From NCBI RefSeq assembly GCF_019331695.1, contig NZ_JAHBBI010000006.1, positions 1 to 64,000 on the forward strand: 64,000 bases of DNA, written 5' to 3'. The notes under the pieces were generated by a model. It did not search any database and was not told where the DNA came from. It worked only from the letters and a program-made list of their open reading frames with translations. The translations under genes and the position numbers were made by a program. This stretch comes from Bifidobacterium pluvialisilvae. GTDB taxonomy: Bacteria; Actinomycetota; Actinomycetes; Actinomycetales; Bifidobacteriaceae. This document shows positions 15,146 through 56,736 of this stretch, one piece after another (within the stretch, counting starts at the first letter, position 1; every line of letters starts with the position of its first letter).

Positions 15146-15711
15146 ATGGGTTTGTGGGTCTGACCGGCCGTCCAAATGGGCTTGTGGGTCTAATAAGTCG
15201 CCCCAATGGGTTCGTGGGTCTATCCGTTCACGAGGAGCACGTTTTCGACGTCTTCATGTATGCCGCAGACCCACAAACCCCTTTATGAACGATTAGACCC
15301 ACGGTCCATACGGCGTGTAGACCCACAAAACCGATCCCAAAAACGGATAGACCCACAAAACCTATTCCGCTTGGCCGGACGCGGCCGCAGAACTCATTCC
15401 ACTTGAGCGCAGGCCCACAAATCCAGAAATCATCCGGCTTTGTGGGTCTGACCCGGCCGCCCAAATGGGCTTGTGGGTCTAACCGCTCGCTTCAACACGG
15501 GTTTGTGGGTCCAATGGGCCGCCCCAACGGACTTGTGGGTCTATGACATACGCGAGAAGCCGGTTTTGATGGTCCTCATGTATGCCGCAGACCCACAAAC
15601 CCCTTTATGAACGATTAGACCCACGGTCCATACGGCGTGTAGACCCACAAAACCGATCCCAAAAACGGATAGACCCACAAACCCGGTTGTCGCCGGGTTT
15701 GTGGGTCTAAA
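15146..15711. repeat. Class A arrays (TTGTGGGTCT), two tandem modules
   Basis: TTGTGGGTCT words at 15151, 15181 and 15211 (exact 30-bp steps) are followed by a central module (about 15254-15302) and inverted words AGACCCACAAA at about 15267, 15319 and 15349. The arrangement then repeats at 15439, 15470, 15502, 15532 and 15577-15709. The segment 15254-15360 is nearly identical to 15576-15682. No protein frame is conserved. Confidence 0.85.
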
Positions 15712-30882: not shown

Positions 30883-30910
30883 CGCCAGTGCCGCGTGGGC
30901 GTGCATTCCC

Positions 30911-30990
30911 ACACACGTCCACACACGTCCACACACGTCCACACACGTCCACACACGTCCACACACGTCCACACACGTCCACACACGTCC
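30911..30990. repeat. Eight perfect copies of a 10-bp unit
   Basis: ACACACGTCC is repeated eight times without variation, starting about 28 bp past the PBP stop. The unit matches one helical turn. Perfect copies suggest a young, length-variable tract. Confidence 0.98.
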
Positions 30991-31010
30991 ACGCAAGGAT
31001 TGAATAGATT

Positions 31011-31712
31011 GGATTTGTGGGTCTGGCAGGTCGTCCCAACACGGGCTTGTGGGTCTGATGGGCCGTCTCAACGGGTTTGTGGGTCCAACGGTTCATAAGT
31101 AAACGTTTTCCGACGTCCTTATGTATGCTCTGGACCCACAAACCTCCTTATGAACGATTAGACCCACGGTTAATGAATGGGCTGGACCCACTGATGGGTT
31201 TGGGTCCGCTGTAAACCCGGCCGGATAACGGCCTAGACCCACAGACCGGCTCCCACTTGAACGGACGGACCCACAAATCCGGCAATCATCCGGTTTTGTG
31301 GGTCTGGCAGGTCGCCAGCATGGAGTTTGTGGGCTTGGAAGGTCGTCCCGATAGGTTTGTGGGTCTATGACATACGTGAGGAACCGGTTTTGATGGTCCC
31401 TGTGTATGCTGTAGACCCACAAACCTCTTTATGAACGATTAGGCCCACGGTTAATGAATGGGCTGGACCCACAAAACCGGTCGGACGATAGGTTGGACCC
31501 ACAAAGTAACGGTCTAGACCCACAGAACCGATTCCACCTGATTGGCTAGGCCTACAAAACCGATTCCATTTGACCAGATAGACCCACAAAACCGGTCAGG
31601 CAACGGGTTGGACCCACAAAACCGATTAATAGACCCACAAAACCGATTCCATCTGATTGGTTAGACCCACAGACCGGCTCCCACTTGAACGGACGGACCC
31701 ACAAATCCAATG
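31011..31712. repeat. Class A arrays (TTGTGGGTCT), two modules
   Basis: TTTGTGGGTCT words at about 31014, 31046 and 31076 lead to a central module (31119-31171) and many AGACCCACAAA-type inverted words. A second module has left words at 31294, 31327 and 31356, a centre at about 31402-31455, and inverted words to 31705. Both centres contain TGAACGATTAGRCCCACGGT as at 15.3 kb. Lies between the PBP and leuA 3' ends. Confidence 0.85.
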
Positions 31713-43579: not shown

Positions 43580-46141
43580 TCATTCGTCGCCGTCGGCGTC
43601 GGTCTTGCGCTTGGCGGCGATGTTCCGCGGGTTTCTTGGGTCGTCGGGGGCGAGGTCCTCCACGGTCTTGACCTCGAACATCTGCTTGAGCGCATCAAGG
43701 CTCATGGCGTTCGAGGAGCCGAGCGAGGCGTCGGTCATGGAGTATTCGTCCTCGTCCGGGTCCACGGCGGGTGCTGCGGGCTGTGGGGCGGACGCCGGCG
43801 TGGGGCCTCCCGGTGCCGGGCGGGGCGGGGCGGCGGCCGTCCGCTGAGCGTTCGGGTGGAAGTGCTGCATCTGCTGCGGCTGTGCGGGTGGCTGCTGGGC
43901 CGGGGACGATTGCTGCGGAGCCGTCGCGGCCTGCTGCGGGGCGTCACCGGCCGTGGGCATGGCCCAGGGGTCGGTGTCGTCGCTCAGGTCGGGGACGGCC
44001 ACATGTTTGGTGTGCGTCTGGCCTTGGGGAGTGCCACGGTGCGGCTCCGTATGCGACAGGTCCTCATACGACGATGCCGGATGGGCGGACACGGCCCAGG
44101 GGTCGTCGGACGCGGCCGGCATGGCCGCATCGGCCGGGGAGGACGGAGCATCCGGGGATGACGGGGATTTCTCCGGCGTCGTGGCGGGAGCGGGTGCGGC
44201 CCAAGGGTCGTCGTCGGGCAACGGGGCTGGCGCCTGCGAGGCGGCGGCGCGGCCGACCCGGTGAACGTCAGCGTCGTCGGACGCCGCAGAGGCGTCGGCG
44301 GTCGCGGCGTCATGCTCGCGAGGCTGTGACGCGGCCGAGGTCCCGGTGCCGGAGACCGCGGCGGCGCTCATCCGTTCCTGCAGCAACTGAGCCTTGATCT
44401 GCTGTTGCTGCTGGGGGCTGAGGCTCTTCCACGGCGCGGATTCCTGACCGTCCGCCATCTTCTTGGTCGGAGCCAGTCCCACGGTGGGGCCAAACATCTT
44501 GCGGGTCTCGGCGCGGAGGATGTCCGTCACCTTGGTGGTACCGTCCACGCTCTCCTCAGCCATGGCAAGCGCGAAGGCGTATTTGTCCAGCGGCTTGTTG
44601 AATTTGATCCACAGATACACCTTGCCGGTCTTGGGATGCGGGGCGAGCTTGACGCGCGGCACCTTGGTGCGGTCCACGTATTGGCGCACGTCCTGCGGCA
44701 GGGCGGCGACAAGGGCGTCCCATTTCTCATCGGGGGTTCGCGTATCGTCGGCCGGGTGTTGTTCGGCGTCCGGGGACGGGGTGGTCTTGTCAGCCTGCGT
44801 CGGGGCCTGCTGTTCCGTCGGGGCCTGCGCGGCCGGGGCCGGAGCGACCGGGGCGTGCGCGGACGCCGGTGCAGCCGGTTTGGATGCGGCGGGGGATTCG
44901 GCGCCGGGCTGCGGGGCCTGCTGCGTGCGGCGACGACCGATGAAGCCTCCGCGCGCGGCACCGGACTGTTGGGGTGCGGCGGCAGGCGCCACCGGTGTTT
45001 CCGCGGATGCGGCCGGCGTAGTGGTCGTCTGCGATGACCGGAACGGCACCAGCAGTCGTGCGGCAAGCAATTCGAGCCGCATGCGCGGCGACGTGGCACC
45101 GCTCATCGAGCCGAGCGTCGAGTTGATGACGTCGGCGATCGACGTCAGCCGCTCCAGACCGAGGGCCTTGGACTGACGGCGCAGATCGTCGATGTCCTCG
45201 GCCTCGGCGTCGTCGCTGAGCACGGATTCGGCACGTTCCCCGGCAATGGTGAGCACCAGCAGGTCACGCACGCGCGAGAGCAGGTCCTCGACGAACCGCC
45301 GCGGATCGAATCCACCGACCACGACCTTCTGCACGACGCCGTAGAGCTTCTCGCCGTCCGCGTCGATCACGGCGTCCACGGCTTCGGAGATCAGCGCATC
45401 CGGCGTGAAGCCGAGCAGGGCGATGGCGGCATCATGGGTGATGACGTTGTCGACGGCGCCGACCATAAGCTGGTCGAGCACGGACAGCGTGTCTCGCATG
45501 GATCCGCCACCGGCGCGCATGGCGAGCCTGAGCACGCCCGGTTCCGGCTTGATGCCCTCCTTGCCGCAGATCTCCTCCAGATACGGGCCCATGACCTCGG
45601 GCGGCACCAGACGGAACGGGTAGTGGTGGGTGCGAGAACGGATGGTGCCGATGACCTTCTCCGGCTCGGTGGTGGCGAAGATGAACATCACATGCTCGGG
45701 CGGCTCCTCCACGATCTTCAGCAGCGCATTGAACCCCTGCTGCGTAACCATGTGGGCCTCGTCGAGGATGAAGATCTTGTAGCGGTCGCGCGCGGGCGCG
45801 AAGCCGGCGCGTTCACGCAATTCACGGGCATCGTCCACGCCGTTATGGCTGGCCGCGTCAATCTCCACCACGTCGATGGAGCCCGGGCCGCCGGTGGCAA
45901 GGTCCCTGCAGGATTCGCATTCGCCGCACGGATGCGAGGTCGGCCCCTTCGCGCAGTTGACGCAGCGGGCGAGGATGCGCGCCGAACTGGTCTTGCCGCA
46001 GCCTCGCGGCCCGGAGAACAGATAGGCATGCGTGAGCTTGCCCTCGTCCAGGGCGCGGGACAAAGGAATGGTGACTTGGTCCTGCCCTATGACGCCGTCG
46101 AAGGTGTCGGGGCGGTAACGCCTATACAATGCCAAAGCCAT
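43580..46141 (-). CDS. dnaX: DNA polymerase III gamma/tau subunit
   Basis: Clamp-loader ATPase. Walker A SGPRGCGKTSSARIL (about residues 43-57), zinc module with CAKGPTSHPCGECESC, Walker B/DExx FILDEAHMV, and SRC-like TIRSRTHHYPF. A long Pro/Ala/Gln-rich tau extension (about 370-800) ends in an acidic tail. 853 residues. The 5' coding region is part of a tandem duplication: codons 20-24 have an inverted copy in the 5' untranslated region, and a second copy of the start region lies 211 bp upstream. Confidence 0.95.
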   Translation of the reverse strand: MALALYRRYRPDTFDGVIGQDQVTIPLSRALDEGKLTHAYLFSGPRGCGKTSSARILARCVNCAKGPTSHPCGECESCRDLATGGPGSIDVVEIDAASHNGVDDARELRERAGFAPARDRYKIFILDEAHMVTQQGFNALLKIVEEPPEHVMFIFATTEPEKVIGTIRSRTHHYPFRLVPPEVMGPYLEEICGKEGIKPEPGVLRLAMRAGGGSMRDTLSVLDQLMVGAVDNVITHDAAIALLGFTPDALISEAVDAVIDADGEKLYGVVQKVVVGGFDPRRFVEDLLSRVRDLLVLTIAGERAESVLSDDAEAEDIDDLRRQSKALGLERLTSIADVINSTLGSMSGATSPRMRLELLAARLLVPFRSSQTTTTPAASAETPVAPAAAPQQSGAARGGFIGRRRTQQAPQPGAESPAASKPAAPASAHAPVAPAPAAQAPTEQQAPTQADKTTPSPDAEQHPADDTRTPDEKWDALVAALPQDVRQYVDRTKVPRVKLAPHPKTGKVYLWIKFNKPLDKYAFALAMAEESVDGTTKVTDILRAETRKMFGPTVGLAPTKKMADGQESAPWKSLSPQQQQQIKAQLLQERMSAAAVSGTGTSAASQPREHDAATADASAASDDADVHRVGRAAASQAPAPLPDDDPWAAPAPATTPEKSPSSPDAPSSPADAAMPAASDDPWAVSAHPASSYEDLSHTEPHRGTPQGQTHTKHVAVPDLSDDTDPWAMPTAGDAPQQAATAPQQSSPAQQPPAQPQQMQHFHPNAQRTAAAPPRPAPGGPTPASAPQPAAPAVDPDEDEYSMTDASLGSSNAMSLDALKQMFEVKTVEDLAPDDPRNPRNIAAKRKTDADGDE

Positions 46142-46510
46142 AATGCAAACCCAATCTTTCCTAAATCCAATCCACTGTCAACGGTGGACCAAGTCACCAT
46201 GCCATCTCGTCCAGGCCTCGCGCTCGATGAATCGCGCTCGCATCGCCTACAGACAGTCCACCGGACTGTCTGCCTAACGGCTCAGCTTGGTCCTGCCCTA
46301 TGACGCCGTCGAAGGTGTCGGGGCGGTAACGCCTATACAATGCCAAAGCCATAATGCAAACCCAATCTTTCCTAAATCCAATCCACTGTCAACGGTGGAC
46401 CAAGTCACCATGCCATCTCGCCCAAGCCTCGCGCTCGACGCATCGCGCTCGCATCGCCTACAGACAGTCCACCGGACTGTTTGCTTAACGGCTCAGCAAG
46501 TCACCATACT
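46075..46510. repeat. 211-bp tandem duplication with REP-like hairpin at dnaX 5' end
   Basis: Units 46075-46285 and 46286-46496 are nearly identical. Each holds the dnaX start region, a GGACCAAGTCACCAT word inverted to dnaX codons 20-24, and an element with direct TCGCGCTCG repeats and the hairpin CAGACAGTCC-ACC-GGACTGTCTG. A third fragment, CAAGTCACCAT, follows the second hairpin. The approximately 495-bp gap to the FNT gene holds no other gene. Confidence 0.9.
46286..46352 (-). pseudogene. Duplicated 5' fragment of dnaX
   Basis: Second copy of the dnaX ribosome binding site, start codon (46352) and first 22 codons (MALALYRRYRPDTFDGVIGQDQ without its downstream part). The frame then runs into the hairpin element. 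It could start a short decoy peptide in the leader but cannot make a DnaX domain. Confidence 0.7.
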
Positions 46511-46636
46511 ACTTTGCAGGGTCCGCCCGACGCATAAGCCGGAGTCGGCAAACGACGGGAACAGGCGCGGCTGCGTCAACCGTGTGCGCGAATATGGTGT
46601 GCGGTTCATCGAAGACTCCAGAGAAGGGATCTCACC

Positions 46637-47569
46637 ATGCCGCACAACGGCAATCCAGCAACCGACGCCGACAACGCACCGACCATCAAGACGACGCAGT
46701 CCATACTCACCCCGCAGATCAACGTCAACGCCCTGACCCCCGCGGAAACCGAGGAGGCCGTGGAGAAGGCCGGCGTCGGCAAGACGCATCTCACCGGAGG
46801 CAAGGCCTTCGTCTCCGCCATGTTCGCCGGCGCGTTCATCGGCTTCGGCGCACTGTTCTTCCTCATCGTCACCTGCGACCCGGCCATGACCTGGGGCCCG
46901 AAGCGGTTCGTCGGCGGCCTCGCCTTCTGCATGGGACTCGTGCTCGTGCTCTGCTGCGGCGCCGAACTGTTCACCGGCAACTCGCTGATGGCCTCCGACA
47001 TCGCCGCCCGCAAGATCAGCTGGGGCGCGCTCGCCAAGAACTGGGTCATCGTCTGGTTCGGCAACCTCGCCGGAGCCCTGCTGCTGGTCACGCTCATCGT
47101 GTTCGCCGGCACCATGGGCCTCAACGACGGCGCCGTAGGCAATACCGCCGTGGCCACCGCCGCCTCGAAGATCACCCCGGACTGGGTCACGCTGTTCTTC
47201 CGCGGCATCCTGTGCAACATCCTCGTCTGCCTGGCCGTGCGCATCGGTTTCTCCGCACGCTCCGTCGGCGACAAGGTCCTCGGCATCCTGCTGCCCATCG
47301 CCGGCTTCGTGGCCATGGGCTTCGAGCACTGTGTGGCGAACATGTTCTTCCTTCCCGTCGGTCTCGCGGCCAAGCTCATGGGCTTCGGCGCCTCGGCTGC
47401 GGGAGCCGGGGCCGTGACCGTGCCCGGCATCCTGTACAACCTTTCGGCGGCCACGCTGGGCAACATCGTCGGCGGCGCCATCTTCGTGGCGCTCGCCTAC
47501 TGGTTCGTCAACGCCCGACGCGCCAACGCCCCGGCGACGGCCGACGACACCGCCACATCAGCCAAGTAG
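46637..47569 (+). CDS. Formate/nitrite family channel
   Basis: FNT-family pentameric anion channel, FocA/NirC-like. 310 residues, about six membrane spans; the pattern AGAFIGFGALFFLIV, ELFTGNSLM, WVIVWFGNLAGALLL and FEHCVANMFF is characteristic (the last includes the central His). A hydrophilic N-terminus of about 50 residues precedes span 1. GAAGGGA precedes the ATG. In bifidobacteria formate is a fermentation product, so export, or re-uptake for Fhs, is likely. Confidence 0.92.
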   Translation: MPHNGNPATDADNAPTIKTTQSILTPQINVNALTPAETEEAVEKAGVGKTHLTGGKAFVSAMFAGAFIGFGALFFLIVTCDPAMTWGPKRFVGGLAFCMGLVLVLCCGAELFTGNSLMASDIAARKISWGALAKNWVIVWFGNLAGALLLVTLIVFAGTMGLNDGAVGNTAVATAASKITPDWVTLFFRGILCNILVCLAVRIGFSARSVGDKVLGILLPIAGFVAMGFEHCVANMFFLPVGLAAKLMGFGASAAGAGAVTVPGILYNLSAATLGNIVGGAIFVALAYWFVNARRANAPATADDTATSAK

Positions 47570-47670
47570 CGGAAGCCAGACGACAATCCATCGACGGGGC
47601 CGGCCATGCCGTGGCACCGCGGCCGAGCCCGGCACGATGAGGCGACGCGTCGCGGCCCGTCGCAGGCGCA

Positions 47671-48051
47671 TCAGCCACAGTCCTTCGGTCCGGCCCTGGC
47701 CCGCGCCGAGGCGTCGACGACGAACGGCACACGGGTCGGCACCGCGGCCGTGACCGTCACATCCTCGCCGGTAATCGCGCAGCCGGTCAGGCGGGCGCGG
47801 TTGGCGGCCGCCGTGGAGCCGCCCTCCGCACAGGGGTCGCCACTGGATTCGTAGAGCGCGGTGGCCGCCGCGAGCGCCGCATGGTCCGCCGCGGTCTGCG
47901 CCACGGACCGGCAGTACAGCACGTTGCCCACGGCCAGGATCGTGGACAGCAGCATGGCGGCGGCCATCACCAGTCCGACGCCGACGACGGTACCGGACCC
48001 CTTGTCGGCACGCATCCATGCGCCGACGCCCCCGCATCCCACGCTATTCAT
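47671..48051 (-). CDS. TadE-like / Rv3654c-type pseudopilin
   Basis: 126 residues. Lys/Gly stretch KGSGTVVGVGLVMAAAMLLSTILAVG resembles a prepilin-type cleavage site and hydrophobic helix; the QTAADHAALAAATAL segment is typical of the Rv3654c/TadE-like family. Starts at ATG 48051, overlapping the upstream TadE gene by eight bases. Last gene of the second Tad unit, convergent with the FNT gene. Confidence 0.85.
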   Translation of the reverse strand: MNSVGCGGVGAWMRADKGSGTVVGVGLVMAAAMLLSTILAVGNVLYCRSVAQTAADHAALAAATALYESSGDPCAEGGSTAAANRARLTGCAITGEDVTVTAAVPTRVPFVVDASARARAGPKDCG

Positions 48052-48478
48052 GCCGGATTCCCGCGGCCTCGCCCCTGCCTTCCGGCAGGACCACGCCCAA
48101 CGGCCCAGGCAGCACGGGGCATCGCGTCGTCACGATGACCATGCCTCCATTCACCGTCGTCGTGGCACTTGCGCCGTTCCCTGCGATTCGAGCCACGACC
48201 CCGGCGACGTCGGCGGACCCATCGCCGGCCACGACCAGTTCCCTGGCGGCGGCACGGGCGGCGTCCTGACAGTTCATGTTGACGATCACCGCCCGTGCGG
48301 ATGAGAACAGCATCAACGCGACCACCATCACCGTCGGCAGCACCACGGCGAACTCCGCGGTGACGGTCCCCCGGTCCGAGCGTGCCAGCCCGCGTCGGAC
48401 CGGGTGCCATCGTCGTGCGATGCCATTGCGCGCCATGCCATTGCGTACCATGTCATCCCGTCGTGCGGCGTTCGTCAT
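48044..48478 (-). CDS. TadE-family pseudopilin
   Basis: 144 residues. A basic N-terminus (about 1-33), then DRGTVTAEFAVVLPTVMVVALMLFSSARAVIV: the Gly-Thr-Val-Thr-Ala-Glu site with Glu+5 and hydrophobic helix defines TadE. GGCAGGGA precedes ATG 48478. Sits 17 bp after the pilin gene and overlaps the next one. Minor pseudopilin of the Tad apparatus. Confidence 0.88.
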   Translation of the reverse strand: MTNAARRDDMVRNGMARNGIARRWHPVRRGLARSDRGTVTAEFAVVLPTVMVVALMLFSSARAVIVNMNCQDAARAAARELVVAGDGSADVAGVVARIAGNGASATTTVNGGMVIVTTRCPVLPGPLGVVLPEGRGEAAGIRHE

Positions 48479-48495
48479 CGTCCCTGCCTTTCGCG

Positions 48496-48771
48496 TCAGA
48501 CGCTCAGGGCCTGTTTGACCAGATTGGTCAGCAGCGTCCTCACGGTTCCGGATTTCAGAATCGCCACGAGCAGTCCGGCGAAGCCGGTCGCGGCGATCAT
48601 GACGACGGCGTATTCGGCCGTGGCCAGTCCTTTCTCCGGTTCCGCGGTCAACGTGCGCAGCCGCGCATCCCAGAGACATATCGTCGTTCTCACCCGCCGG
48701 GTCAGGTCTCCCGGCCGGCCGCTTATATCGGGTCCATGATTCAGCCCGTCTGATCGCAGTCGTTCCATCAT
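48496..48771 (-). CDS. DUF4244 Flp-type major pilin candidate
   Basis: 91 residues. A long polar leader (about 1-46) is followed by EKGLATAEYAVVMIAATGFAGLLVAILKSG: Gly-Leu-Ala-Thr-Ala-Glu-Tyr is the prepilin cleavage motif with Glu5/Tyr6. The C-terminal VRTLLTNLVKQAL is typical of actinobacterial DUF4244 pilins. First gene of its unit; a 203-bp upstream region holds the conserved Tad motif and a DnaA-box-like site. Confidence 0.88.
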   Translation of the reverse strand: MMERLRSDGLNHGPDISGRPGDLTRRVRTTICLWDARLRTLTAEPEKGLATAEYAVVMIAATGFAGLLVAILKSGTVRTLLTNLVKQALSV

Positions 48772-48876
48772 GTCCGTCCTTTCCGGCGGTCAATCGTCCG
48801 CCTTTCTTGCATCGGTCTGTGTGTTCCGGCTTCGAAGCTGATTCCAGTGTGCCGTATTCCGCGCCGCCTCCCCATG

Positions 48877-48943
48877 GTTTTCCGACAATGTTGACGAACG
48901 TGGATAAGCCCTACTGCCGCTTGGAAAACCAGACTGTGGATAA
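48877..48943 (-). promoter_or_regulatory. Shared Tad motif and DnaA-box-like site upstream of the pilin gene
   Basis: A 22-bp motif at 48877-48898 containing CAATGTTGACG matches 19 of 22 bases at 52576-52597 upstream of the other Tad unit. A perfect TTATCCACA (minus, 48935-48943) and a one-mismatch version (48898-48906) follow. Position fits a regulator site about 106 bp upstream of the pilin start. Confidence 0.6.
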
Positions 48944-48973
48944 CCGTACGGCCATCCACATCGGATGGTTCCG

Positions 48974-49546
48974 TCACCCTCCGGCGAACGACACGATGGA
49001 GGGGACGACTCCGATGAGTATGAACGCCGGCAGGAAGCACAGCCCCATGGGCACCAGCACCCGCACCGACAGTCTGGCGGCGTTCTCCTCGATCGAGCGC
49101 CGTTCGTCCCTGTCGATCTGCTCGATGGTCGTTTCGATGCGCAGCAGCGGCGAGATGCCATGCTTCCACGATGGCGCCAAAGCCTCGCGTATGGTGTCCA
49201 ACGCCCTGCGGTGGCGACTGTCGGGCACGACCACGCCCCAGGCGTTGCCCCAGTCCGCACCACGGTTCAACGCGTCCGCGATGGCGATCAGATGCGCGCC
49301 CAACACGTCATCATCCGGCGCGGCCGACGCATCGTCGTCGCACAGGACGCCGCCGATGACCTCCAATGCCCGGGGGATGGACGCCCCCTGACGCACCGCC
49401 ACGGCGATCATCTCCAGCAGCAGCGGCACCGACGGGCCCCCATCGCACGACGACCGCGCCAACGCGACGGCGCGATGTCCTCCGACATGCAGATACGCCG
49501 CCATGCCGGCCATGCCGGCCGCCAGCAGTTGCCAGACCATTCCCAT
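48974..49546 (-). CDS. TadC-like (GspF domain) inner-membrane platform protein
   Basis: 190 residues: N-terminal hydrophobic helix, T2SSF cytoplasmic domain (GPSVPLLLEMIAVAVRQGASIPRALEVIG), then ISPLLRIETTIEQIDRDERRSIEENAARLSVRVLVPMG and a final membrane span. GGGGGAT lies five bases before ATG 49546. Last gene of the ssd-tadA-tadB-tadC unit. Shorter than proteobacterial TadC, as is usual in actinobacteria. Confidence 0.87.
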   Translation of the reverse strand: MGMVWQLLAAGMAGMAAYLHVGGHRAVALARSSCDGGPSVPLLLEMIAVAVRQGASIPRALEVIGGVLCDDDASAAPDDDVLGAHLIAIADALNRGADWGNAWGVVVPDSRHRRALDTIREALAPSWKHGISPLLRIETTIEQIDRDERRSIEENAARLSVRVLVPMGLCFLPAFILIGVVPSIVSFAGG

Positions 49547-49565
49547 ACGAATCCCCCTTACCGCA

Positions 49566-50267
49566 TCATGACGCCCCGCGAGCGCCCCGCGACGACCGAC
49601 CATCCGCTCCACCGCCGGAGCGCCCGCCGACATCGTCGTGCAGACGACGCATCAGCGCCCCCACCCACGCCAATCCCACGGCATAGCACAACGCACCCAG
49701 CGACAGGCACAACAGCCCCGGCATGGTGCCGAACAGGAACGCCAACGGCCGGGCGCCCAGCATCTCGCCGAGCAGGACGGTCACCGCCGGCAACGCGGAC
49801 AGCAGCCTCACCGTGGACCGGGGCATGGCCATCGCCTTCGCCTCCAGATCCTCCACAAGCCGCGAGCGCGCATACGATGACGCGACGGCAGACAGGCACC
49901 GCACCGTCTCGCATCCGAGCCGCTCACTCACCCGGCATGCCACGAACACGTCGCGGGCGACGCGACGGGCCTGCTCCGGGGTCTCGTCATCGCCGCGCCG
50001 ATGCTCGAACACCTCCACGGCACGCTCCTCGGTGACGGCTGCCGTGGCGAACCGACGGCCGGCAAGCTCCTCAAGCGCCCCGGACGCGGTGCCGCCATTG
50101 CGGATGAACGCGCTCATCGACGACAGCGCGGCCGCCAACCCCATGCGACTCACCGACCGCACGGCGACGTCGCCCAGGCCGCACAGTCTGCGCCACGGCG
50201 ACGTCACATCCCATAGCGAACACCCCACAGCCAGGCCCGAGGCCACCGCGGCCAACACCGCCATCAT
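49566..50267 (-). CDS. TadB-like (GspF domain) platform protein
   Basis: 233 residues, two to three membrane spans with a GspF-type domain in between (LSSMSAFIRNGGTASGALEELAGR, then ARDVFVACRVSERLGCETVRCLSAVASSYARSRLVEDLEAKAM). The start ATG 50267 overlaps the tadA stop (ATGATG), so translation is coupled. Anchors the assembly ATPase at the membrane. Confidence 0.87.
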   Translation of the reverse strand: MMAVLAAVASGLAVGCSLWDVTSPWRRLCGLGDVAVRSVSRMGLAAALSSMSAFIRNGGTASGALEELAGRRFATAAVTEERAVEVFEHRRGDDETPEQARRVARDVFVACRVSERLGCETVRCLSAVASSYARSRLVEDLEAKAMAMPRSTVRLLSALPAVTVLLGEMLGARPLAFLFGTMPGLLCLSLGALCYAVGLAWVGALMRRLHDDVGGRSGGGADGRSSRGARGAS

Positions 50268-51355
50268 CGGCGACGCTCCGGCAGACAGGGCGCCGGGGAG
50301 ACGCCCCCGCCGGCCAATGGCACATCCCACCGCTCGGCGAACGCAGGCCATCCGGCATGGTATGCCGCCGGCCCCACACCGTCCCATTCACACAACGCGC
50401 GCCCCACCAGACGGCCGTCATCATCCACCTCCAGCACACCGATCTGGGCCAGACGGCGCATGCCGTGCGGCCGTTCCAGATGCAGCACCGCATCGAACGC
50501 ACCCCATGCCAGCATCGCCAACGCCTCCGGGCGCAACCCGGCCAGCAGACCCAACGTGGTCAGCCGGGCCGGCACCCGGTCCACACCATCGGCATGCAAC
50601 GTGGCCATGCCGCCGTGATGGCCGGAGTTCAACGCGCGCAACAGGTCCGCGATCTCCTCGCCACGGCATTCCCCCAGCACCACACGATCGGGCCTCATGC
50701 GCAGCGTGGCCTTGACCAGATCGGGCAGTCCCACGGCGCCGGCGCCCTCCACGTTCGCCTCCCGCGCCACAAGTGACACATGATTGCCGTGGTCGATAGC
50801 ACCGAGCTCGCGAATCTCCTCCACGCTGACGATGCGTTCGCCGGCGTCGCACGCGGAGAGCAGCGCCTTGAGCAGTGTGGTCTTGCCGGTGCCGGTGCCG
50901 CCGGTGATGAGCATCGTCGCCCGTGCATCCACCAGCCGTCGGAGCAGCGTCATCCACGTCTCGGGGAACATGCCGGAGCCGCACAGCGTCGGCAGGTCGG
51001 ATGGCACACGGTCCGGGAATCGGATGGACAACGCCGCTCCCTGCTCCACCAACGGCTCGATGACGGCGTGCACACGGATGCCATCCGGGGTGGCGGCGTC
51101 GGCTATCGGCCGTGAATCGTCGAGCCGGCGCCCAAGCTGGGCACACAGCTGCACGGCGTAGTCGCGCACGATGCGGGGTGAGCGGAACCCTATCGGCATG
51201 GCGCGCTCCTCCATGCCGTCGCCGCGGTCCACCCATATGCGTCCTTCGCAGGTCACCGCCACGTCGGTGATGCCCGGCTCGCGCAGCACTTCGTCGAGCG
51301 GCCCGAACACCACGGTCGCGCGTCGGCCGCCGCCGGCGTCAAGGCCGGCGGCCAT
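50264..51355 (-). CDS. TadA/CpaF-type pilus assembly ATPase
   Basis: Secretion ATPase powering Tad pilin assembly. 363 residues. Walker A ITGGTGTGKTTLLKALL (about residues 149-165), Asp box IVSVEEIRELG, Walker B RPDRVVLGECRGEE, His box NSGHHGGMATLHAD. The N-terminal domain of longer CpaF proteins is largely missing, as in other actinobacteria. GGAGAGG precedes ATG 51355, which overlaps the end of the preceding gene by 17 bases. Confidence 0.93.
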   Translation of the reverse strand: MAAGLDAGGGRRATVVFGPLDEVLREPGITDVAVTCEGRIWVDRGDGMEERAMPIGFRSPRIVRDYAVQLCAQLGRRLDDSRPIADAATPDGIRVHAVIEPLVEQGAALSIRFPDRVPSDLPTLCGSGMFPETWMTLLRRLVDARATMLITGGTGTGKTTLLKALLSACDAGERIVSVEEIRELGAIDHGNHVSLVAREANVEGAGAVGLPDLVKATLRMRPDRVVLGECRGEEIADLLRALNSGHHGGMATLHADGVDRVPARLTTLGLLAGLRPEALAMLAWGAFDAVLHLERPHGMRRLAQIGVLEVDDDGRLVGRALCEWDGVGPAAYHAGWPAFAERWDVPLAGGGVSPAPCLPERRR

Positions 51356-52538
51356 CGCAACACCTCTCCTCCACCCGGTCGCATATGTCATCCAGCAGCC
51401 TGCGATACCGTCGAGGAATCCTGGAGATGCCCAGCCCGGCCAGCAGTCCCTTGCCCAGACTGCCTTTCCGCCGTATCACTCCGGCCAGAGGCACCTTGAG
51501 ATAGTCCTTGGCGTCGCGTTCCGTCACCACGCCGCCACGGCCCGCCCCGAACGGCCGGACGCCAACGAGCAGCAGCGGCGCATCCGCCGACGGCATGACG
51601 GCCGCGCCCTCCTCGTCATGCGCGCCCGCGTCCCTCATCCGTGCCAAAGCTCCCCGGGCGCGCGCCAGTCCGAGCACGCTGAGCTCCACCAGCATCACGT
51701 GCAGGGCGATGGGCACCTTCCGCCAGTCCGTCGCATGGCCGGCGTCCACCATGACGACGTCCCGGCATTGGGTCAGCGCGTCCACGGCCGCCTCCACCTC
51801 CCACCAGTCCGGGTGACCGTCGTTCCAAGGGTCCGAGGCCAGCATGGGCAACCCCTCCCATTGGGGAAGCTCATGCAGCAGCGACTCGGGCTCGATCCTG
51901 CCCAGCGGCGCGCTGACGCCGCTCCAGCGGAGTCCTCCCTCGGATTCCTGCCCCAGCAGCACATCGATTCCGCCCGCGGAGAAGTCCATGTCGACGACCA
52001 CACATGTCCGGTCGCGTTTCATCAGGGTCCGTGCGCACATGGCCGCGAACGTGCTGACGCCGATGCCACCGCTCGCCGATGAGAACACCACCATGCCCGG
52101 CCCGCCAATCCGTCCGGAACCCGGCCCACCGTCGAACGTGTGTCCCGATGGAGCCGCCGCTCCCCGATCCGCTCCGCCGCGATCACGGCCACGGCTGCGG
52201 CTGCGGCTGCGGCTGCGGCAGCTCCCGTGCGCGAGACCGTCCTCGCGCCCACGGCCATCCCCGAGCCCACGGCCGTGTTCCGTCCGACGCGGCACCGCCC
52301 CCGGCGGGGAGGAGCGCGCATAGAACCGCTTCGGCCGCGGTGTCGGCAACGAATCCATCCCCGCCGGCAGCGGGATGCCGCCGACGGAGACGCCCGCCCC
52401 GCGGATGTCGCGGCCGCCTCCGGAAACCCCGCGATTCCCGCCACCGGTAGCGCCAATGCCCGCATCCGCATCGGCGCCCGCGACCCGTCCCGCCGGTCGC
52501 ACAGCATCGTTGATCATCCCGATATGCACAGCATTCAT
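51339..52538 (-). CDS. Ssd/CpaE-like MinD-family protein of the Tad locus
   Basis: 399 residues. A Gly/Arg/Ser-rich N-terminal 145 residues of low complexity (runs of alternating Arg-Ser) precede a MinD/ParA-type domain: FSSASGGIGVSTFAAMCA, a Walker A variant without the usual first Lys and with Val for the second, then VVVDMDFSAGGIDVLLG. Related proteins (Ssd, CpaE, TadZ) localise the pilus machine; ATP hydrolysis may be lost here. ATG 52538 is chosen; an upstream GTG at 52625 would place the conserved Tad motif inside the coding region. Confidence 0.82.
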   Translation of the reverse strand: MNAVHIGMINDAVRPAGRVAGADADAGIGATGGGNRGVSGGGRDIRGAGVSVGGIPLPAGMDSLPTPRPKRFYARSSPPGAVPRRTEHGRGLGDGRGREDGLAHGSCRSRSRSRSRGRDRGGADRGAAAPSGHTFDGGPGSGRIGGPGMVVFSSASGGIGVSTFAAMCARTLMKRDRTCVVVDMDFSAGGIDVLLGQESEGGLRWSGVSAPLGRIEPESLLHELPQWEGLPMLASDPWNDGHPDWWEVEAAVDALTQCRDVVMVDAGHATDWRKVPIALHVMLVELSVLGLARARGALARMRDAGAHDEEGAAVMPSADAPLLLVGVRPFGAGRGGVVTERDAKDYLKVPLAGVIRRKGSLGKGLLAGLGISRIPRRYRRLLDDICDRVEERCCDGRRP

Positions 52539-53088
52539 GGTCCGATTGTCGCAATGCCGGTCATGCCGGCACCGGGTTTTTCGGCAATGTTGACGGATGG
52601 ACCACCCTCGACCCGAGTTATCCACATTCCGGAGCCGTCCTCATCCACAATCGTCCAGTCCACGACCACTCATGACCATCCAGAACCGCCCACCGTCGGC
52701 GGCACTCACCCACGCCCGGCCATGCCCCCATCCACATTGTGAACGCTCCATCCACCATTCGCGCGTCGGACGTCAACGACAAATCGACGACGATCCCCGC
52801 CATCGGACATCAATCATCCATCAAACGCACAGAACATATCGCGACGACCATGCCGAACGCATCGAATCCGCCCACATCGAAACAAAACCGAACGCCGCAT
52901 CTCCCCTCACGCCACGGAACCCCCGCAACACCTCCGCACAACGGCGGACCCACAAAAAAACCATGGAAAAACCGATGCCCACGGCTTGCGAAACACCGCA
53001 TCGGGTGGATAATAGAACTACAAGCAAAACAGAACAGCGCGGAGCCCACAAGAGTAGATGATCACCAAGGTCAATGATGTTGGGCGGA
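52539..53088. other. Upstream region of the Tad operon
   Basis: Holds the shared Tad motif (52576-52597) and a perfect TTATCCACA nonamer (52618-52626). Repeated ATCCACA-like words follow near 52650 and 52730. Beyond 52740 the composition becomes AT-richer than the surroundings (to about 53100), with no credible coding frame. Confidence 0.5.
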
Positions 53089-53192
53089 TTATATAAGACT
53101 TACCGCCACGACGACGATGTTGTGTAGAGATTCCGCATGTACGTGATGCTTGTACATAAAGCCGGTTCCCATTCGGGGGCCGGCTTTTGCAT
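53089..53192 (+). ncRNA. Candidate small RNA or pmt leader with terminator
   Basis: A TTATATAAG box (53089-53097), suited to a -10 element, precedes about 95 nt. That stretch contains an ATGTAC...GTACAT hairpin and ends in AAAGCCGG...CCGGCTTTT (53158-53187), a terminator-like structure. The transcript would end about 170 bp before pmt. No family was recognised. Confidence 0.35.
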
Positions 53193-53360
53193 ATCCGCAC
53201 GCCGTTCCTTCCCATGCCCTTCCTTCCCACCCCGCGCGCCGTCCCACCCCGCGCGCCGCTTCCGCACCCACCCCGCGTGCCTCTCCCGCGCGCCCCTACC
53301 GCACCATCGCCCCGCGCACACCCATCGCATGTCCACAACTCAGCCGCTACCCTTGGAAGG

Positions 53361-55187
53361 GTGAACACGGATACGACAACGCAGAAGGCACGGCGGCACC
53401 GGACATCCCCGCACGCACGCCCATTCGCGCATACGCGGCGCGGCGCAACGTCCCTGTCACGCGGAGAATCCGCTGCACAGTCACAGCCCCTGTCCACCCT
53501 GCCCAGGGCCATCGGCAGCCCCACCGTGCTGGGCTGGGCGCTGCCCATCCTGATGGCGGTCTTCGGCGGACTGCTGCGCTTCATCCGTCTCGGCTCGCCA
53601 CGCGCCGTGGTGTTCGACGAAACCTATTACGTCAAGGACGCGTGGACGATGATCATGACCGGCGAGCCGCGCAACTGGCCGGAGAAAATCAACGGCACCG
53701 CCATCGACACGCTGTTCGCCAGCGGCCAGCATCTCAACGGATGGCTGGCCAGCGCCGAATACGTCGTGCATCCCCCGTTCGGCAAATGGTGCATCGCGCT
53801 CGGCATGCAGCTGTTCGGAGGGGCGTCGAACCCGTTCGCATGGCGCGCGTCCACGGCCATCGCCGGCACCATCGCCATACTCATCCTCTGCCGCGTCATC
53901 CTGCGGTTGTTCCGTTCGCTGCCCATGGCCCTGCTCGGCGGCTTCCTCATGGCGATCGACGGCATGGGCATCACGCTGAGCCGCACCGGCCTGCTCGACA
54001 ACTTCATCATGGTGCTGGCGCTCGGCGCCTTCGCCTGCATGCTCGCCCACCGCGACTGGGCACGCGACCGCCTCCGCAAGGCCTACGAGCGGGAATCGCG
54101 ACGATACCAAGCCAAATGGATTCCCCGCACCACACTGTTCGCCCGCCCGTCCGGCAGCGGCAGCCCACGACGCCGCAACGCCCATCGACACGGCTCCCAC
54201 CATTCCGCCCCCGGCCCCGACGCCGGCATCGACGCAGATTCACGCCCCGCTCCCGACTTCCTCCTCGACTCCACCGGGCCGGTCGTCGCGTTCTCGTGGT
54301 GGCGTCTCGCCGCGGCGGTGCTGCTGGGCCTCGCCACCGGCGTGAAATGGTCGGGAACGTACTTCTTCGCCGTCTTCTGCGTCATCAGCGTGCTGTGGGA
54401 CGCATGGGAACGCCACCGGGCCGGATTCCGCGGCTGGCTCGCCACCGGCATCTGGAAGGACGGCATCCTCGCCGCCGTCTACATGGTGCCCGTGTACGCG
54501 CTCACCTATCTGACCACATGGGCCGGCTGGTTCGCCCACCCCGACTCGTACATGCACGACTGGGCCGCGACCAACCCCGGCAAAGGCATCACCTGGTTGC
54601 CGGAATCATGGCGGTCGTTCGTCGAATACCACGTGCAGATGTGGCAGTTCCACACCACGCTCGACGCGCCGCACAACTACAAGGCCAATCCGCTGACCTG
54701 GCCCATCCAATGGCGGCCGACCAGCTTCTACTGGCAGGAGCTCGCCGGCCATCCCGGCCTGTGCTCGCTCAGCCCCGATTCGAAATGCGTGGCCGCCGTC
54801 ACCTCCCTTGGCAATCCGCTGATCTGGTGGCTTGGCTCACTGTGCGTGATCATCGGCATCGTCATCGCGATCGTCAACCGCGGGGATTGGAAAATCTGGG
54901 CCGTATTGGCCGGCTTCCTCGGCGGATGGCTGCCATGGGCGCAGTATCTCAATCGCACCACGTTCACGTTCTACGCCATCGTCATCCTGCCGTGGATCAT
55001 CCTCGGATTCGTATACGTGGCCGACTGGCTGCACCGGTCGCTCGACGCGTTCTCGTTCTGGTGGATCATGGGCGGCGTATTGTTCATCATCACATTGATA
55101 TCGGCGTTCTTCTACCCCATATGGACGGCGATTCCCGTACCGTATGAATTCTGGTTGTCGCATATGTGGTTTGAGAGTTGGATCTGA
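53361..55187 (+). CDS. pmt: Protein O-mannosyltransferase (GT39)
   Basis: Multi-span membrane glycosyltransferase that moves mannose from polyprenyl phosphate to exported proteins. The FDETYYVKDAWTM motif with the catalytic Asp-Glu pair lies near residues 84-96. HPPFGKWCIALGMQLFG and SRTGLLDNFIMVLALG follow, and the C-terminus SHMWFESWI is typical of actinobacterial PMTs. 608 residues if started at GTG 53361; this start has GGAAGG directly adjacent and is uncertain. A Ser/Arg/His-rich loop (about 245-300) is unusual. The last codons are copied in the tandem repeat downstream. Confidence 0.9.
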   Translation: MNTDTTTQKARRHRTSPHARPFAHTRRGATSLSRGESAAQSQPLSTLPRAIGSPTVLGWALPILMAVFGGLLRFIRLGSPRAVVFDETYYVKDAWTMIMTGEPRNWPEKINGTAIDTLFASGQHLNGWLASAEYVVHPPFGKWCIALGMQLFGGASNPFAWRASTAIAGTIAILILCRVILRLFRSLPMALLGGFLMAIDGMGITLSRTGLLDNFIMVLALGAFACMLAHRDWARDRLRKAYERESRRYQAKWIPRTTLFARPSGSGSPRRRNAHRHGSHHSAPGPDAGIDADSRPAPDFLLDSTGPVVAFSWWRLAAAVLLGLATGVKWSGTYFFAVFCVISVLWDAWERHRAGFRGWLATGIWKDGILAAVYMVPVYALTYLTTWAGWFAHPDSYMHDWAATNPGKGITWLPESWRSFVEYHVQMWQFHTTLDAPHNYKANPLTWPIQWRPTSFYWQELAGHPGLCSLSPDSKCVAAVTSLGNPLIWWLGSLCVIIGIVIAIVNRGDWKIWAVLAGFLGGWLPWAQYLNRTTFTFYAIVILPWIILGFVYVADWLHRSLDAFSFWWIMGGVLFIITLISAFFYPIWTAIPVPYEFWLSHMWFESWI

Positions 55188-55518
55188 TGATGACTGTTAT
55201 CGCATTGCAAACCACATACGCGACCAGCGCGCTCGATACATCGCGCGCCCCTCGCCTACAGACAGCCCACCGGGCTGTCTGCTGCACGGCTCGGCTTATG
55301 TGGTTTGAAAGTTGGATCTGATGACGACTGTCATCGCATTGCAAACCACATATGCGACCGGCACGCTCGATACATCGCGCGCCCCTCGCCTACAGACAGC
55401 CCACCGGGCTGTCTGCTGCACGGCTCGGCTTATGTGGTTTGAGAGTTGGATCTGATGATGGCCGTCATCGCATTGCAAACCACATATGCGACCGGCACGC
55501 TCGACACATCGCGCGCCG
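55157..55518. repeat. 134-bp tandem repeat with REP-like hairpin at pmt 3' end
   Basis: Copies start at 55163, 55297 and 55431; the last is truncated near 55518. Each has the pmt tail TATGTGGTTTG, its inverse CAAACCACATA about 45 bp on, and the hairpin CAGACAGCCC-ACC-GGGCTGTCTG with ACGGCTCGG. Including flanks, the inverted match to pmt coding sequence is 17 bp. The hairpin element is clearly the same one found at dnaX. No gene in the 433-bp gap. Confidence 0.92.
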
Positions 55519-55620
55519 AATTTTCTAAACTGGGTATCAGGACGGCCACCGACCGCCGCGGAACAACGATCAGGCACCGGTCGGCATGACCAGACACGAC
55601 AATCGGGGAAAGACATCATC

Positions 55621-56736
55621 ATGGGACTTGGCAATGTTTCGGAACGACGCGCCCAACCGCCGCAGGTCGGTGTTTCCGTCGTAATCCTCGCGCTCGGCGA
55701 CCCCACGGCCGCAGCGGACGGCGAACCCGCCGCCGGCCGCCGGACCGCCGCCAAGTCCGCCACAGCCGGCGGGGACCCCCATCCCCGGCTGTGGCTGCCG
55801 CTGGTCCGCCGCATACACCAGCCGTTCAAAGGCATGTGGGCGCTGCCCGGCGGCGGACTGCGCGCCGACCGCTCACTCGAACAGGCCGCCTACGCCGCCC
55901 TCGAATCCACCACCGACCTGCATCCGCGATATCTCGAACAGCTCTACACGTTCGGAGACCCGTCGCGGTCACATGGCGGACTGCCCATGGTGTCCATCAC
56001 GTATTGGGCGCTGGTCGAGCATGCGCAGACCCGCGACCTGACGACGGCGGACAACGTCGCATGGTTCCCCGAGGACGCCCTGCCCGAGCTCGCCTTCGAC
56101 CATCGCACCATCATCGACTACGCGTTGTGGCGGCTGCGCAACCGCATCGAATACCCTCAAATCGCCACACGGCTGGTCGGCGAGACGTTCACACTCGCCC
56201 AGCTGCACGACGTCTACGAGGCCATCGCGGGCGAGCCGATAGACCTGCCGAACTTCCGTCGCAAGATGCTCGCCTCCAAGCAAATCGAGCCGACCGGGGA
56301 GAAACTGCGTATCGGCAGGCACCGCCCCGCATCCGTATACCGCTATGTGGACGCCGTTCCGACATCACGTTCCACGACGTCGCCGGACCTGTTCGCCATC
56401 GGCGGACCGGATGCCGTCGCCACGCCGCGTGCCCCCGAGGCAAAATGTGGCAAAATAGGGCAGGCGGTTCATTCCAATGCTACGGAAGACGCCGCGGAAA
56501 CCGGCGATTCGGGGGCAGACGACATGACGCAGCAGATACATGACGGCACTATGGCATACGGCACGACGACGCATGACGGCGTCGACCAATCCCAGTCGTC
56601 CGACGCGGCCTGGACCGACGCCGACCGCATGAACCTGCGCCCGATATACGCATACAGCAACGACGCCACCAGCAAGGCGGCACGGCTGGAGGCGCTCGCC
56701 GCGCTGATTCCCTCCGGAGATCGCTCGGTCTCCTGA
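55621..56736 (+). CDS. NrtR-like Nudix/winged-helix protein
   Basis: N-terminal Nudix domain (about residues 15-180): the Nudix box position reads GGGLRADRSLEQAAYAALE, lacking the REUxEE glutamates, so hydrolysis is probably lost. The winged helix follows (IEYPQIATRLVGETFTLAQLHDVYEAIAG, then NFRRKMLASKQIEPTGEK). This matches NrtR, which senses ADP-ribose and represses NAD-related genes. A 130-residue hydrophilic tail after about residue 240 is extra. No nad gene is adjacent. GGGGAAAG precedes ATG 55621. Confidence 0.82.
   Translation: MGLGNVSERRAQPPQVGVSVVILALGDPTAAADGEPAAGRRTAAKSATAGGDPHPRLWLPLVRRIHQPFKGMWALPGGGLRADRSLEQAAYAALESTTDLHPRYLEQLYTFGDPSRSHGGLPMVSITYWALVEHAQTRDLTTADNVAWFPEDALPELAFDHRTIIDYALWRLRNRIEYPQIATRLVGETFTLAQLHDVYEAIAGEPIDLPNFRRKMLASKQIEPTGEKLRIGRHRPASVYRYVDAVPTSRSTTSPDLFAIGGPDAVATPRAPEAKCGKIGQAVHSNATEDAAETGDSGADDMTQQIHDGTMAYGTTTHDGVDQSQSSDAAWTDADRMNLRPIYAYSNDATSKAARLEALAALIPSGDRSVS

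Follow-up and report, generated by a model that had tools for sequence, protein, structure and literature searches.

Downstream of a dolichyl-phosphate-mannose-protein mannosyltransferase-like gene (pmt) in the window (the whole 64,000-nucleotide stretch of Bifidobacterium pluvialisilvae DNA analysed here), the last codons of the gene recur around a small hairpin element, first inverted and then in direct orientation, and the unit so formed is repeated in tandem. How does a gene come to be followed by its own end in both orientations, and what part does the hairpin element play in this? An earlier note on this DNA had seen the same logic at dnaX, and had proposed a recurring mechanism akin to that of REP sequences moved by Y1 (RAYT) transposases.

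Arrangement of the pmt and dnaX loci

The features of both loci are given below, where E is the hairpin element, A' the inverted host copy and p the insertion point, defined as the first base of the direct host copy after E.

53187-55187, plus strand: pmt coding sequence, taken from the list of open reading frames and ending in ...LSHMWFESWI and a stop
55157-55187, plus strand: inner copy of the pmt end, of which 55157-55173 is the 5' arm pairing with A'
55208-55224, plus strand: A', the inverted pmt codons, covering -5 to +12 relative to p
55227-55248, plus strand: first hairpin of E copy 1 (GCGCGC...GCGCGC), with a stem sequence that varies from locus to locus
55251-55295, plus strand: long imperfect hairpin of E copy 1, with a 45-nt core, an inner stem at 55259-55281 and the right end GGCTCGGC
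55296-55429, plus strand: second unit, with the pmt end in direct orientation, A' at 55342-55358 and E copy 2 up to 55429
55430-55517, plus strand: third and outermost unit, with the pmt end in direct orientation, A' at 55476-55492 and an E truncated to its first hairpin
43580-46141, minus strand: dnaX coding sequence, which contributes its 5' end as host DNA to the second locus
46068-46082, plus strand: dnaX codons copied in inverse at 46186-46200 (GGACCAAGTCACCAT)
46219-46286, plus strand: E copy 1 at dnaX, with the right junction GGCTCAGC/TTGGTCC
46430-46497, plus strand: E copy 2 at dnaX, in a 211-bp repeat

Each 134-bp unit at pmt runs from the pmt 3' end through a loop to A' and a two-hairpin E of ~70 nt, and the period was recovered by TRF over 55163-55517 (2.6 copies, 95% matches, score 647), in agreement with the nearly three repeats described before. 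Likewise, the reported inversion of codons beside the gene end was recovered: the codons GTCGCATATGTGGTTTG (55157-55173) are matched by the first A' at 16/17 positions and by the second and third without mismatch. The point p at pmt is presumed to lie at ~55162, right after GTCGC. The hairpin CAGACAGCCCACCGGGCTGTCTG occurs at 55259-55281 and 55393-55415, and one unit folds into three hairpins on either strand (z = -4.6 on the plus and -5.4 on the minus strand). Orthologues of pmt were found in 54 of 111 family genomes.

At dnaX the 211-bp repeat (46075-46497) includes the 5' end of the gene and carries the same E as pmt. The proposed likeness of the two loci holds for the element and its amplification, but is weaker for the inverted stretch, which at dnaX does not abut E (E lies ~15 nt further on) and which has a shorter, pre-existing form, the complement of ATGGTGAC, in two species whose dnaX site is without E (G004 and G007). 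In this respect dnaX is in part an exception to the empty-site pattern given below. By comparison its left junction shows the microhomology CCTCGC, and its right junction is common to five species, including this one, up to one added base.

The element family and the signature at its junctions

E consists of a first hairpin with a locus-specific stem, a short linker and a long imperfect hairpin, and in many copies the first hairpin is preceded by CGTC, CTTC or CCTC. The earlier note's expectation of further copies in this genome is borne out by about 20 full or partial ones. A consensus search found E in 45 of 131 Bifidobacteriaceae genomes and across this genome, and a covariance model found it in 62 of 132, with 19 matches in this genome and from 1 to at least 47 in each carrier. 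A strict pattern gave 105 contig stretches and, among the matches listed (80 of 105 loci), all were Bifidobacterium. In the longer hairpin 12 of 16 pairs were changed on both sides among 47 distinct cores, none of 500 shuffles was as good, and the signal was lost when the pairing was slid; column 1 pairs with column 43 across two mismatches. E is thus a Bifidobacterium-wide family whose longer hairpin is backed by covariation. It had no Rfam match at an E-value of 1 or below in 45900-55800 and no match in plasmid and phage collections, and no earlier description in Bifidobacterium was found in a search of open-access papers.

Other repeats were seen in its neighborhood. At five loci (L070, L107, L134, L085, L014) the GGCTC of E continues into a further conserved module, which lies around TGCAATTANGGAC and has a hairpin of its own, so that E may belong as one component to a larger, modular family of repeats. 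A different hairpin motif, roughly GACTCGACGTAC...GTACGCCTTCG, recurs close to several copies of E (L003, L010, L012, L051, L073) and looks like a separate dispersed repeat. The window also holds arrays based on TTTGTGGGTCT or its complement at 15146-15543 and 31014-31705, with periods of about 30 bp and 115 bp, and a perfect 10-bp tandem repeat of CCACACACGT (8.4 copies) at 30909-30992.

The arrangement at pmt proved to be general. A direct copy of upstream host DNA follows E in 57% of 150 copies vs 2.7% of random control positions, and it starts 0-2 nt from the end of E in 71/85 and varies in length from about 10 to >100 nt. Upstream of E, an inverted copy of the target was present at 79% of 78 direct-copy junctions, vs 2.3% in a locus-swapped control in which target and region were drawn from different loci. 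These differences exclude chance, and they uphold over many copies of E the recurring logic that had been proposed from two loci. The right end of E joins the host after a C, the base before p (-1) being C in 33 of 40 distinct targets (P = 2.5e-11), and the direct copy, where present, is host DNA from p onwards. The inverted copy usually covers about -5 to +12..+40 and mostly abuts the first hairpin; its start is variable (mostly +12 to +40), and its end is most often -5 or -6 (35 of 62 junctions). G is weakly enriched at -5 (20/40 targets, P = 0.009), so that the staggered cut considered below would rest mainly on the regular -5 boundary.

The remaining 43% of E copies have no direct copy. 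Five of the loci without the usual direct host copy (L018, L043, L048, L050, L054) have E inside a larger inverted repeat with arms of 19-31 nt, a second architecture in which E sits within larger palindromes.

Occupied sites, empty sites and gene ends

We compared empty sites between species, with one genome per species. Of 30 species compared at the typA 3' end, 12 carry both A' and E, 15 carry neither and three retain remnants. The empty site of G112 reads ...cgtcgtcagaacaaccagactaagtgaCCCATGAAACCTTGG, and the outer copy in the occupied G115, AGAATAACCAGACTAAGTAAGGTGAGATGAAACCTTGG, is colinear with it, such that all sequence from p up to the outer copy is extra in G115. Two other empty typA sites (G105 and G096) have a weak native inverted repeat, in G105 AACAACGC/GCGTTGTT, which has grown at one side to give CCGACAGAACAACG/CGTTGTTCTGTCGG in the occupied G082, where it leads into E; here too the outer copy is colinear with the empty sites, as it is at dnaX (G004 vs G005). 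At pmt, three species (G001, G007, G008) have neither A' nor E and seven (G004, G005, G006, G085, G089, G093, G099) have both, and in each carrier A' and the outer copy fit the carrier's own gene end, which differs between species. At typA and pmt, therefore, the inverted segment is missing together with E, and the observation that the earlier note had named as fatal to its reading, an inverted segment in strains without the hairpin, was not made there. It is the outer copy that lines up with empty sites, while the gene is kept whole by the inner one. A pre-existing terminator hairpin as the target was discarded for typA and pmt, where the empty sites have no inverted arm, although some short native seeds exist. 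Tested over 62 junctions, the idea of such a seed holds for part of them, and several loci have filler sequence between the shared host DNA and A', which argues that a fold-back seed is not universal.

These comparisons bear on whether E moves at all. It could be immobile and vertically inherited, with tandem duplication and quasipalindrome correction by host replication making and keeping the copies. A, A' and the outer copy do co-vary across species, the inner and outer copies of dnaX appear patchily homogenised, and the dnaX right junction shared among five species would also fit. However, vertical descent would have to accommodate 40 different target contexts, the empty sites at typA and pmt, and a fixed -5/-6 offset that is unexpected under later correction, and we regard it as unlikely, while according it some weight. 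An account at the RNA level, in which the gene-specific hairpin and E form a selected structure at the transcript 3' end (a terminator or stability element) with its pairing kept by selection, appears distinctly improbable to us: many loci do lie directly 3' of stop codons, folding is strong (z = -12.7 at typA) and changes are compensatory, but at the dnaX and gpsA-like loci E lies by the 5' end of the gene and on its opposite strand, many relatives lack both E and A', and the direct copies of coding sequence and the offset to p are left unexplained.

How the inner and outer copies have diverged was examined at 45 gene 3'-end junctions (ORFs of at least 600 nt ending within the copy), which are partly non-independent, as some represent one gene in related species. 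Between the copies 44 codon differences were synonymous and 21 nonsynonymous, against an expected synonymous share of 19.5%, and 55 of 77 base changes fell at third positions (P about 1e-11 vs one third). Since the differences are mainly synonymous, the genes remain intact. By our estimate, about a third would be synonymous even with only silent changes in the inner copy and no constraint on the outer; the excess over this estimate suggests that for much of the divergence the outer copy served as a working gene end, or that it has been homogenised with the inner. The same synonymous excess would be accommodated if cassettes of gene end, A' and E moved between strains by homologous recombination, the inner end being a foreign allele and the outer the host's own, and at dnaX of the occupied G005 it is indeed the outer and not the inner copy that matches the allele of the empty G004. 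Yet in many cases a species has the same sequence in its inner and outer copies, and it is between species that they differ, and the first formation of a cassette would still need explaining, for which reasons we judge such transfer to be improbable as the source of the arrangement.

The arrays have a layered appearance, the outermost E often being truncated. In G020 typA a unit with tail NNQTK is stacked on one with tail NNQNK, and their insertion points are separated by about 7 nt. By species TypA ends in NNQTK, NNQNK or NNQSK, and the alternatives are found stacked in E arrays (typA 3' ends L215, L216, L217, L222, L223, L224). Because of this stacking, E insertions may drive turnover of protein ends, and could explain species differences in last residues such as the NNQTK and NNQNK of one array.

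Possible modes of insertion and known systems

The link to REP elements put forward in the earlier note supposes that E is a REP/BIME-type repeat moved, now or recently, by a RAYT, a Y1 HUH transposase. The dispersed hairpin repeats beside genes, the imperfect hairpin, the minus-strand GTAG and the presence of Y1 transposases in a few Bifidobacteriaceae speak for it. However, a profile search found no Y1_Tnp (PF01797) in this genome, so that the transposase the note had suggested looking for is missing here; among 101 family genomes the domain occurred in 6, just two of which, G064 and G003 (3 weak matches), are E carriers, and it is absent in 60 of 62 E carriers, the genome samples for Y1 and for E not being identical. 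Moreover, the GTAG is not an unpaired end tag but part of a conserved internal loop within the longer hairpin, overlapping helix positions beside the loop, and we know of no REPs that come with inverted copies of their target. We consider a RAYT origin very improbable, and with no explanatory transposase found E may mark an unfamiliar mode of insertion.

Other candidates were set aside. Of 132 genomes, 8 had the reverse transcriptase RVT_1 (PF00078), and E was present in three of these (G093, G100, G109); a retroelement with a resident enzyme was rejected because the enzyme is missing here and from nearly all carriers. A MITE of a DDE transposon was rejected on the grounds that no terminal inverted repeats were seen in E and that the direct copies vary in length rather than forming a fixed target duplication. 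RNA-guided homing with A' as guide was dropped because a perfectly matching site is still present at the occupied locus, and an integron attC because its core motif would be wrongly oriented, the latter by reasoning only.

Our preferred reading, on which we are evenly divided, is that E is a non-autonomous mobile hairpin element (~70 nt, two hairpins) inserted with fold-back copying of its target, for which both the enzyme and the steps are inferred; insertion was never seen to happen and the enzyme was not found. The copies lacking a direct copy, those within larger palindromes, the filler at several loci and the inverted bases already present at dnaX weigh against it. If the DNA were cut around p with a stagger of about 5 nt, the broken end would have a 3' end at -5 on one strand and a 5' end at p on the other, and a single-stranded E hairpin would bridge the two strands, such that A', E and the outer copy together would form a hairpin-capped end. 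The cap would then be replicated, and switching of template away from the intact strand, in some cases where a short native inverted repeat or microhomology is available, would restore the chromosome and yield gene end, A', E and gene end in that order. In some loci fold-back may begin at short native inverted repeats, and arrays might arise by repeated events or unequal recombination. That this amounts to a new class of DNA insertion, in which a single-stranded hairpin bridging a staggered broken end leaves inverted and direct copies of the target, we put forward tentatively, and on balance we doubt it. If true, E can insert at essential gene ends while providing an intact one. Mobile DNA would be tolerated where housekeeping genes end (typA, metK, pmt, dnaX and others) because it brings a gene end with it. 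Small hairpin repeats lacking a transposase are common in bacteria; as geometry is preserved in E junctions from 40 target contexts, the chemistry of insertion can be put to the test.

Quasipalindrome or microhomology-mediated template switching produces inverted copies of nearby sequence by fold-back synthesis, and in the reading preferred here E is alike. In contrast to E, we know of no case where it inserts a defined element or leaves a fixed junction. Similar to REP, REPIN and BIME sequences with their RAYTs (PMC3116915, PMC2817692, PMC3733652), E is a short extragenic hairpin repeat, dispersed in many copies and often beside gene ends, but it differs in that nearly all carriers have no RAYT/Y1 gene, in its lack of an unpaired GTAG end tag and in the inverted and direct target copies beside it. 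CGTC REPs, which have a CGTC tag, stems of 8-9 bp with AT first and second pairs, loops of 4-5 nt and CCA tails, resemble E in being without a dedicated transposase (PMC3733652). In E, however, the tag is present in some copies only, the stems start with GC pairs and no CCA tail is seen, and E is set apart further by its two hairpins, its composition and the target copies. Fungal mitochondrial double-hairpin elements (Paquin et al. 2000, cited in PMC10085805) are small, non-coding and potentially mobile, with two hairpins and an unknown mechanism, and are not, to our knowledge, described with inverted target copies at a fixed offset. They are the nearest analogue of E in form, those elements being mitochondrial and E bacterial.
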